From Kofleriaceae bacterium (GTDB lineage: Bacteria > Myxococcota_A > Polyangia > Haliangiales > Haliangiaceae): a stretch of 62,568 nt of DNA. The position numbers were made by a program, and so were the translations under genes. Below the pieces are notes generated by a model. That model searched no databases, was not told the DNA's origin, and worked only from the letters and a program-made list of their open reading frames with translations. The stretch is taken from the NCBI GenBank assembly GCA_024762925.1, contig JANTGM010000024.1:1-62568 (forward strand). The letters run 5' to 3'. This document shows, in pieces, positions 59,825 through 62,568 of this stretch (its first letter is position 1; every line of letters starts with the position of its first letter).

Positions 59825-61513
59825 CTAGGGCCCCATTTCAATGCGGTACACCGAGCAATGCGATGTCACAAGTGCTTGAGCGCCACGACTCATGAGCCTC
59901 ATGTCTCCGCTCAGAGTCGCGTCATCAAGTCTCTGAAGCTTCCTAGAACCCATCTTTCGCGAAAAGAGTTCTAGCTCCTCATTCTCGTTGAGACAGAGAC
60001 AGACGCCACTGTCCAAGACCGCCAAATTTCCAGTAGCAACTTCTACATCCTCGATGATTCGGCAATCATAGTCTGTGAAGTGCTCATTGAAACGGAATAC
60101 CAAACGGTCCATCTGCCCCTCTCGGTTCACGGTTGCGACCAATACATTCCTCTCAAACGATGCATCCACTAGCGTCGCTCCGAAGAACTCTGAAATCGCA
60201 ACCTGGTAACTAAACCCCGCCTTTGGCAGCAAGCTCACATAGGTCGCACCAAGAAGATTCTGGACGACAAAACCCGGCCACAGTTGGGTTGCATTCGCTA
60301 CAACGTTCACCGCGACCGAGAGAGATATGCTCAGGGCTCCGCTCGCTCCACCCAGTTGAACTTCGCTAATCTTTGTGCCGTGGTGAACGTAGAGCCGCCC
60401 CTGGTAGGGAACCGCTGCCTGCGTGACCAAGGGCAGTCTACAGAGCTGGCTAGTCTCGAGGTCAAGCAACTGGAGTTCATCTGACGTTCGTGAAACGGCC
60501 AATGGTTGATTCTGCGGCCCAAAGACAATGCCCGCGAAATTGGCCGGCGTGCTGGCCAGCTTCTGTTGATGGTTCCAGATACCGTCCTTCGCAGCGGTCA
60601 ACATGTGCGGCCCCGACGCATAGGTCGCTCGAATCTCAGACTCTCGTGACTCGACCGGATGGTAGAGAATCGATGCGCCATTTCGAATCGGCGTGACGAC
60701 CAGTGGCGCCAATGCGCGGGCTGTGGCGCTCGCAGGTGGCGAACCGCGAAAACCCTCTTCGAAAACCCGACGGAACCACTCTCGATATCCAGCGGGAATA
60801 CTCGGGAGTGCGTATGTCGTCTTTGGAACCCGCACGTCTGAGTTGAAAACGGAGAGATTGGCACGCATGCGCGCATCAAGCCCTTTGCAAGTGGGGTGTT
60901 TTCCCTTGTAGGGATGGATTCCAATGAACATTTGAAAGGCGATGATCGCGAACGAGAACCAATCGCTGTTGGGCGAGAAGCGGTGTGCCTGCTGGTGTCG
61001 ATCTCGGATGGAATCCATGATTGCCGTCGCTGGATAGCTGGGAGTTTGATACGAATCCACATCGACAAAGAACACATCTTTGAAGTCACGTGACACGAGG
61101 AAATTGAGTTCGTTGCCATCGACGAGCAGAGCGCCAGCAGTATGCACCGACGCTATGCCTTCGCGTAGCTGCTGCACCAAGTGGAGAATCTGCGAGACGC
61201 CGATGCCGTGCCGAGTTCGAAACGCCCTTGAGAAGAGCTGGCATAAGACAAAAGCGTCCTGCACATGCCGCATTGTGTAGCCAACGGGAGCCCCTCGCTT
61301 GGTCATACTCAGAGTGCTCTCGGGGCCAACGATCCGAGCGTCTCTTATGGCCGCGAGCTCAGATATTTTCTGCTCCGGAATCATGTGACTCGGATCGGTG
61401 TAGAGCTTGTAGGCAACTCCGCCTTGAGCATATACCGAGGCCTGCCCGCCCTGGCCCACAAAGCTCTTCTTCGGGAGGTTAATGGAGGTTTGATTATCGA
61501 TCCACACTCTCAT
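59825..61513 (-). CDS. atypical protein kinase with C-terminal beta-rich domain
   Basis: A 562-residue protein. The kinase-like half (about 1-290) has a glycine loop GQGGQASVY (20-28), Lys36 (VAYKLY), a catalytic-loop equivalent LVDGNELNFL that keeps Asp132 and Asn137, and DVD (151-153) for DFG, so activity is plausible. SDWFSFAIIAFQMFIGIHPYKG follows. The C-terminal 270 residues look like propeller-type beta blades. Its ATG overlaps the stop of the PP2C gene (ATGA). It resembles kinases paired with PP2C phosphatases in ter-like stress systems. Confidence 0.75.
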   Translation of the reverse strand: MRVWIDNQTSINLPKKSFVGQGGQASVYAQGGVAYKLYTDPSHMIPEQKISELAAIRDARIVGPESTLSMTKRGAPVGYTMRHVQDAFVLCQLFSRAFRTRHGIGVSQILHLVQQLREGIASVHTAGALLVDGNELNFLVSRDFKDVFFVDVDSYQTPSYPATAIMDSIRDRHQQAHRFSPNSDWFSFAIIAFQMFIGIHPYKGKHPTCKGLDARMRANLSVFNSDVRVPKTTYALPSIPAGYREWFRRVFEEGFRGSPPASATARALAPLVVTPIRNGASILYHPVESRESEIRATYASGPHMLTAAKDGIWNHQQKLASTPANFAGIVFGPQNQPLAVSRTSDELQLLDLETSQLCRLPLVTQAAVPYQGRLYVHHGTKISEVQLGGASGALSISLSVAVNVVANATQLWPGFVVQNLLGATYVSLLPKAGFSYQVAISEFFGATLVDASFERNVLVATVNREGQMDRLVFRFNEHFTDYDCRIIEDVEVATGNLAVLDSGVCLCLNENEELELFSRKMGSRKLQRLDDATLSGDMRLMSRGAQALVTSHCSVYRIEMGP

Positions 61514-62304
61514 GACATGCCCTTTCGGAGCGTGAGTCCTGCCACTGCGAGATCGTCCTGATGCACCCACTGACGGGTTCTGCAGGTTCTTCCGAGAAAC
61601 CGCTTGCAGCGCCGTTGCACAAAGGACCCACGGGTAGTCTTCATGGCACAAAGCTCTGCAATAGCAGCATGCACATGTGCTCCGGGCCCCTCGAACGAAG
61701 ACGCCCCGTCAGACAGGAGTAAGAGAAACTCGTACTCTCCGACATCAAGCACGATTTGCGTTGTAAAGTCCGCTGCAAGCAACTGCTCGCGCTCCTCGCA
61801 CACAACACCATCAATACACCGCGTGATGCGCCGAACTCCGTAGCCCGCATCAAAATAGGCCTGCATGCGCCTCTCGTCGAGTAGGTAGCTCAAGTACGCG
61901 GGTGCTCCGCTGTCGGAAAACTCCCAGCTGACCAGTGCACCGTCATTGCGTCGGGCCGCAACGAATCCATCTCCGGCCACGCTGACGTGCAAGCATGAAT
62001 CGTCGACAACAAATGCCGAAAGCAGTGTCGCGTCTAGGCAGAAGGGCTGGCCTCCAAACAGGGACACCGCTGCCGCTGCGCGACGAGCAATCCACAGTGG
62101 ATCGAAGTCTTGCTCGAAAATCCGCAGCCGACGCTCGGCGGCATGCACTAAGAGGCGCGCGCCAAGGTCGGTGTCTTCCGACCCAGAACACCCATCGCTA
62201 ACGAGGGCATAGCCGGTGACTCGCCCTCGCGCCACCCCCGTCCTTGCATAGTCCTGGCAAACCTTGTGGCTGGCGCCAATCGCATAGAAGTGGTCACTGT
62301 CCAT
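61510..62304 (-). CDS. PP2C-type protein phosphatase
   Basis: A 264-residue PPM-family phosphatase. Metal-binding residues are in QDYA (Asp18), SDGCSGSEDTD (Asp37), LLLLSDGASSFEG and HQDDLAVAGL, the usual motifs 1, 2, 8 and 11. The ATG at 62304 has AAGGA 9 nt upstream; the frame is open to 62562 but that extension contains a large palindrome and is not protein-like. It is translationally coupled to the atypical kinase, its likely opponent. Confidence 0.82.
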   Translation of the reverse strand: MDSDHFYAIGASHKVCQDYARTGVARGRVTGYALVSDGCSGSEDTDLGARLLVHAAERRLRIFEQDFDPLWIARRAAAAVSLFGGQPFCLDATLLSAFVVDDSCLHVSVAGDGFVAARRNDGALVSWEFSDSGAPAYLSYLLDERRMQAYFDAGYGVRRITRCIDGVVCEEREQLLAADFTTQIVLDVGEYEFLLLLSDGASSFEGPGAHVHAAIAELCAMKTTRGSFVQRRCKRFLGRTCRTRQWVHQDDLAVAGLTLRKGMS

Positions 62305-62452: not shown

Positions 62453-62498
62453 TCGCGATCACGAATCAATGTCCATGGATATTGATTCGTGATCGCGA
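62453..62498. promoter_or_regulatory. 46-bp near-perfect palindrome
   Basis: Two arms of about 22 bp, each beginning CGCGATCACGAATCAAT, meet at TCCATGGA with a single internal mismatch pair. The dyad is centred 171 nt before the phosphatase ATG. It may be a large operator, a hairpin in the leader, or a recombination site. There is no T-tract, so a terminator is unlikely. Confidence 0.7.
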
Positions 62499-62537
62499 AG
62501 TCAGCTCGTTTGCTGGCGAGGCGGGAAGAGGGAGTTT

Positions 62538-62568
62538 GCTGGGGCAAGCGACCGAGGAACAACGAAGA
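62538..62568. repeat. short dispersed repeat, copy at right edge
   Basis: Shares its first 12 bp exactly with position 1-12 and continues with a similar purine-rich stretch. The copy may extend beyond the window. Confidence 0.35.

Follow-up and report, generated by a model that had tools for sequence, protein, structure and literature searches.

A phosphatase gene and a kinase gene overlap at the right-hand end of a 62,568-nucleotide stretch of Kofleriaceae DNA (the window), and the locus raises the question of which larger system, if any, this pair belongs to. These two genes form the 3′ end of a module of five, which encode a NAPRT (PncB-like), a nicotinamidase-like PncA, a vWA protein, a PP2C phosphatase, and a kinase with a propeller. 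The module recurs almost unchanged in dozens of giant phages as well as in scattered bacteria, which points to protein phosphorylation as a control on NAD recycling in giant phages and some bacteria. It is probably a vWA-PP2C-kinase phospho-switch that is attached to Preiss-Handler NAD+ salvage and has been exchanged between huge phages and bacteria.

The phosphatase and the kinase of the window

The PP2C-family phosphatase is encoded at 61510-62304 on the minus strand (264 aa, ATG start) and the kinase at 59825-61513 on the same strand (562 aa). The stop codon of PP2C and the start codon of the kinase share the ATGA overlap described in the first-pass annotation, at 61510-61513 (minus strand). 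PF13672 (PP2C_2) matches the phosphatase above the Pfam cut-off with an E-value of 4.9e-9. D37, G38, D112, D199, D250, and D251 are invariant in 36 relatives, and the metal ligands are intact.

The kinase is barely visible to single-sequence Pfam (E 0.03). Searches of Pfam, NCBIfam, and the PDB with the single sequence gave weak kinase matches and dUTPase matches; the latter fall on the propeller strands and were discarded as chance. An AlphaFold model built from a 39-member alignment of the full-length family (A1) has a mean pLDDT of about 90 (AF2 pLDDT 90.3), and its residues 1-267 have a protein-kinase fold, with Z of about 19 to PknB, STK17B, and BRAF. The kinase domain proper (residues 1-263; 60725-61513, minus strand; PDB fold match Z 19) contains K36, E52, D132, N134, N137, D151, and D184. 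All of these except D184, together with G22/G23, show little or no variation among 39 relatives, and they include the Lys36, Asp132, Asn137, and Asp151 already recognised from the letters.

The kinase had been called atypical for its LVDGNELN loop and its DVD motif. Both are present, but they are not odd within their class, as E. coli YegI has the same motif type. Across the 39 relatives the catalytic loop reads VDxNExN, and the motif that binds metal is DxD or DxN. The family profile matches YegI at 57.7 bits, and YegI has VVGDVNQNSF and IDSDSFQ at the equivalent places. A D-x-N-x-x-N loop and a DxD thus replace HRD and DFG on a kinase fold, which is the mark of the YegI class. Given the conservation in the 39 relatives and the YegI alignment, these motifs are class features and not signs of a dead kinase. 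The dead-kinase reading was dropped because the family retains K, E, D, N, and D and because activity has been reported for YegI. The conserved K36, E52, D132, N137, and D151 of the window kinase are predicted to form an active-kinase set.

The tail comprises a predicted seven-bladed beta-propeller at residues 282-560 (59834-60670, minus strand). Residues 276-562 folded alone give a pLDDT of 94.8, a pTM of 0.90, and 28 strands, and the model aligns best with seven-bladed propellers, namely virginiamycin B lyase (Z 16.2, rmsd 3.6, 253 residues) and G-beta (Z 15.7). Beyond its kinase domain the window kinase lacks CxxC pairs, and its tail is predicted to fold as a propeller, not as a zinc ribbon. 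The profile HMM search and structure prediction proposed in the first-pass annotation thus yield a YegI-class kinase domain and bear out the propeller-like C-terminal half suspected there.

A probable interrupted operon in the window genus

The window is a whole contig (C24), and its right edge is the contig end, which lies inside a dispersed repeat. The end of this repeat at 62472-62568 (40 copies scored in the genome) places the contig break between the PP2C gene and the missing upstream genes. The sister species, the closest relative with the genes and a member of the same genus, has NAPRT, PncA-like, vWA, and PP2C genes and the kinase start on one contig (C850, L042), which either overlap or are spaced by about 20 bp. 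The rest of its kinase opens another contig (C909, L041). In the window genome, NAPRT-PncA-vWA occur at the end of contig C143, which is also cut in a dispersed repeat, and the vWA protein encoded there is 70% identical to that of the sister species. The last 97 bp of C143 are another abundant repeat piece of the same class, and both pieces, the C24-end and the C143-end types, lie side by side on contig C210. Most simply, the operon of the window genome would run on through a repeat that separates vWA from PP2C and at which the assembly broke, so that C143 and C24 would join at this point.

The suspicion that a larger system starts at the window edge is supported by the five-gene order in the sister species. 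The vWA protein expected to complete a triad with the phosphatase and the kinase is found in the sister species, on C143, and in phage and bacterial loci. The first-pass annotation had weighed its proposal against the outcome of housekeeping genes upstream and no conserved neighbourhood across related genomes. Housekeeping genes do occur on the left, but a conserved neighbourhood is present, contrary to that outcome.

A prophage or a contaminating phage contig was considered and rejected. The SDR, dNK, M16 peptidase, lipase, and amylase genes on the left flank in the window, the RecD2 and GlpX genes flanking the C143 copy, the even GC, and the 70%-identical vWA protein of the sister species argue for an ordinary chromosome.

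The repeat belongs to an interspersed element of ~185 bp that occurs at 40 or more places, many of them at contig ends (window 62453-62568; C143 13732-13828; C210 6672-7047). Its termini resemble inverted repeats (TAGTGCGCGATYCATG), and the window copy has a 46-bp near-perfect palindrome at its inner end (62453-62498). An Rfam search of the repeat gave no match. The element looks like a MITE or a REP-type sequence that fragments the assembly of the window genome.

Occurrence in huge phages and scattered bacteria

With the kinase as query, a tblastn search of a phage collection hit three records (462-595 kb), of which two match over the full length, and PncA and vWA genes lie on the same strand in all three. 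A scan of viral contigs (IMG/VR) with PncA as the query found 52 loci, in which the presence of PncA is given by construction and that of the other three genes is not. After duplicates and weak matches were dropped, 43 viral loci remained, of which 40 have a full-length kinase (>500 aa). The exact order PncA-vWA-PP2C-kinase on one strand is found in 35 of these 40, with a median span of 5.4 kb and often with small genes between the module genes. Within about 10 kb of the 43 loci there are genes for NUDIX/NrtR-like proteins (15/43), NAPRT (14), NadE (9 + 4), and NadD-like proteins (5 + 3), as well as Macro, NADAR, and PRPP synthetase genes. In a 618-kb phage contig (L171, 16456-18601), an NrtR-like regulator and then an ADP-ribosylglycohydrolase are encoded beside the phage NAD module.

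Eighteen module-bearing phage records of 189-618 kb were searched whole. They contain a large terminase subunit (12/18), NAD synthase (NadE, 17/18), an NAPRT-like enzyme (17/18), and a NadD-superfamily nucleotidyltransferase (14/18). Among control huge-phage records that lack the kinase, NadE occurs in three of six, two of them apparently one genome. NAD genes are thus common in huge phages anyway and only seem enriched with the module, and the difference in NadE (17/18 vs 3/6, with a small control) is only suggestive.

Full-length bacterial kinases with 40% identity occur in a Blastocatellia (L040) and in an Actinomycetota MAG, in both cases behind PncA-vWA. PP2C is present in the Actinomycetota locus and missing in the Blastocatellia locus. 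In 377 genomes of the window's phylum, a profile search found 12 further kinases that match beyond the kinase domain and are scattered over the tree. PncA-vWA lie directly upstream of the kinase in 10/10 of those 12 loci whose contigs reach far enough. PP2C is found in only 3/12. Its absence from most of the survey loci and from the Blastocatellia locus indicates that the phosphatase is not always local. An NrtR-like Nudix gene lies directly downstream in five of the 12 loci (read by eye), the NrtR/Nudix regulator PF21906 adjoins the module in the Blastocatellia locus and in the 618-kb phage contig, and no NrtR gene adjoins the copy of the window genus.

Upstream of the Blastocatellia copy, at 6056-8089 of L040, are genes for NrtR (Nudix + winged helix), FRG-domain, and Macro-domain proteins, which form one run of NAD/ADP-ribose-handling genes with PncA-vWA-kinase. 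An 801-kb Variovorax plasmid (NZ_LR594667; L120, 7070-16777) has PP2C-kinase-pncB, after which AlkB, NADAR, and NAD+ synthase genes come within 7 kb. From its annotated neighbours, this megaplasmid locus looks like a larger NAD island.

A distant group in the window's class comprises 27 loci with the order kinase-PncA-vWA; PP2C, where recognised, lies upstream. These loci (L043-L060, L083-L094) belong to genomes that share the family and class of the window genome, and their PncA proteins keep the catalytic triad. The kinases carry other tails, and in two of those read a zinc-ribbon-like Cys-pair stretch precedes a beta-rich tail.

The window genus groups with huge-phage sequences (100/89) in the PncA tree, where bacterial copies fall at three points among the phage ones. 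The kinase tree unites 12 bacterial kinases in a single clade (99/92), nested in a phage-rich one, and sets the Blastocatellia kinase apart. Both trees were rooted with the distant group, differ in detail, and depend on the rooting, but both require exchange between phages and bacteria.

The gene arrangement bears on the view that a general phospho-signalling triad hitch-hikes with the NAD genes and regulates something else. The variable gene distances in the phages, and the unrelated small genes that intervene in many of them, are consistent with this. In contrast, order and strand are kept across the phages and several bacterial lineages, and the differently ordered distant group (27 loci, kinase-PncA-vWA) keeps the link to PncA. 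Hitch-hiking is therefore most improbable.

Proposed NAD+ salvage and its putative phosphorylation switch

The PncA-like proteins are 265-275 aa long. The Asp-Lys-Cys triad and the Asp/His metal ligands are found in 47/47 proteins of the near group, and the top matches of the family profile in the PDB are nicotinamidases (yeast Pnc1, E 3e-16). The score on NF008623 is 33 bits against a cut-off of 174. The family is thus diverged and appears to be a nicotinamidase subfamily, with a putative substrate assigned by profile and residues. The phosphoribosyltransferase is matched by PF04095 (NAPRTase family) above the cut-off and lies below the NCBIfam equivalog cut-offs. The proteins it matches best are phosphoribosyltransferases for nicotinate rather than nicotinamide, in agreement with a nicotinamidase as its partner.

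The PncA-like enzyme could instead hydrolyse another amide or a signal related to immunity or ADP-ribose, which would make the module a counter-signalling or conflict device with the NAD enzymes as mere neighbours. The divergence of the family below the NCBIfam cut-off, a length that exceeds that of typical PncA, and the Macro, NADAR, ADP-ribosylglycohydrolase, and FRG genes near some loci are in line with this proposal. However, the protein has the triad and metal ligands of a nicotinamidase, the top PDB profile matches are nicotinamidases, NAPRT lies directly upstream in the window genus, and NadE and NAPRT each occur in 17/18 phage records. A substrate of this other kind is unlikely.

In the preferred reading of a phospho-switch on NAD+ salvage, PncA and NAPRT would bring nicotinamide into the Preiss-Handler route in two initial steps, to nicotinate and then to NaMN. 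NAD+ would be completed by NadD- and NadE-like enzymes, which most of these phages encode themselves and which the bacterial host presumably supplies in the bacteria. The kinase and PP2C would act as the phosphorylation switch, the vWA protein as the likely adaptor and phospho-acceptor that ties it to the salvage enzyme, in keeping with its intact MIDAS and strongly conserved Ser-rich tail, and the propeller as a docking or sensing platform. In phages such a switch may gate NAD+ resynthesis during infection or after an NAD+-depleting host defence. In bacteria it may tune salvage, together with NrtR where this is present. A more specific version, in which the kinase-phosphatase-vWA circuit of huge phages senses NAD+ loss and turns on their own nicotinamide-to-NAD+ pathway against NAD+-depleting immunity, and bacteria acquired the circuit from phages, is conceivable and rather doubtful.

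NAD+ salvage by phages is itself known. NAD+ resynthesis genes of the NadV/NadM/NadR kind are described in PMC9503650 (KVP40 has the NadV/NadM type), and phage 5-SewaE has four nicotinamide-to-NAD+ genes (PMC10747093). The module shares phage-encoded NAD+ resynthesis with these sets but takes the route of a nicotinamidase and a nicotinate phosphoribosyltransferase. The attachment of a Ser/Thr kinase, a phosphatase, and a vWA adaptor to NAD salvage is not mentioned in PMC9503650 or PMC10747093, and no description of the combination was found in the open-access literature searched. The module resembles NrtR-controlled NAD operons in the NrtR/Nudix genes that adjoin several copies, and it adds putative post-translational (phosphorylation) machinery. 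Dozens of huge phages are thereby named for the study of phosphorylation control over NAD+ during infection.

The TerY-P triad consists of a vWA protein, a PP2C, and a Ser/Thr kinase with a C-terminal accessory domain, a zinc ribbon (PMC11090510). The first-pass annotation had placed the pair near tellurite-type and conflict-related systems of this kind. A defence or tellurite-type TerY-P triad would have the same three kinds of protein, antiphage activity is described for TerY-P-like triads whose kinase has an OB-fold (PMC11090510), and the zinc-ribbon-like stretch of the two distant-group kinases may bridge TerY-P and the window type. The module differs in that its kinase tail is a propeller and neither a zinc ribbon nor an OB-fold, and in that it is tied to NAD salvage, whereas TerY-P is tied to ter or restriction genes. 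No ter or restriction genes were noticed by eye in the ORF lists of the loci read. Of the vWA, TerD, and effector genes that the first-pass annotation proposed to look for beyond the right edge, the vWA gene was found; TerD or effector genes were not noticed by eye in the ORF lists of the bacterial loci. PADLOC gave no match for four of the five proteins (the window PP2C and the sister-species vWA, PncA, and NAPRT), and the kinase matched only weakly, through its kinase domain. Moreover, the phages themselves carry the module and the bacterial flanks are housekeeping. The tellurite or conflict-type assignment is thus not upheld, as the constant partner is a nicotinamidase-like enzyme, accompanied by NAPRT, NrtR, NadD, and NadE. 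The vWA-PP2C-kinase set is related to TerY-P triads and is not itself one, and a defence or tellurite function is very unlikely.

E. coli YegL-PphC-YegI is likewise a vWA-PP2C-kinase set, in which YegI shares the VDxNxxN and DxD motifs. YegI autophosphorylates and is dephosphorylated by PphC, according to the passage of PMC13232886 that cites Rajagopalan et al. The PP2C profile match of PphC is weak (19.8 bits). Unlike the module, the E. coli locus has no NAD genes within the 7-kb stretch around it. The C-terminus of YegI is of another kind, and the propeller profile has no match to it. YegL and the vWA protein of the module are not recognisably close in sequence. Triads of the YegL-PphC-YegI and TerY-P kinds are poorly understood, and here they gain a concrete and assayable metabolic partner.

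The MIDAS of the vWA protein (DxSxS...T...D) is intact, as D, S, T, and D are invariant in 45 relatives and the middle S is S or T. The protein has a strongly conserved C-terminal tail of roughly F[VI]SxS[IV]SxxSQ.LGTGGPS..L.F, and its Ser/Thr content is 30% in the last 30 residues and 15% elsewhere. This tail is the best candidate phospho-acceptor and provides a predicted cluster of phosphorylation sites. A similar Ser-rich C-terminal stretch is found in E. coli YegL (FSWLSSSLRSVSRS). The Ser-rich tail (for example L082, 13600-13674) mostly ends in LxF and is kept in phage and bacterial copies, and it is faint in YegL.
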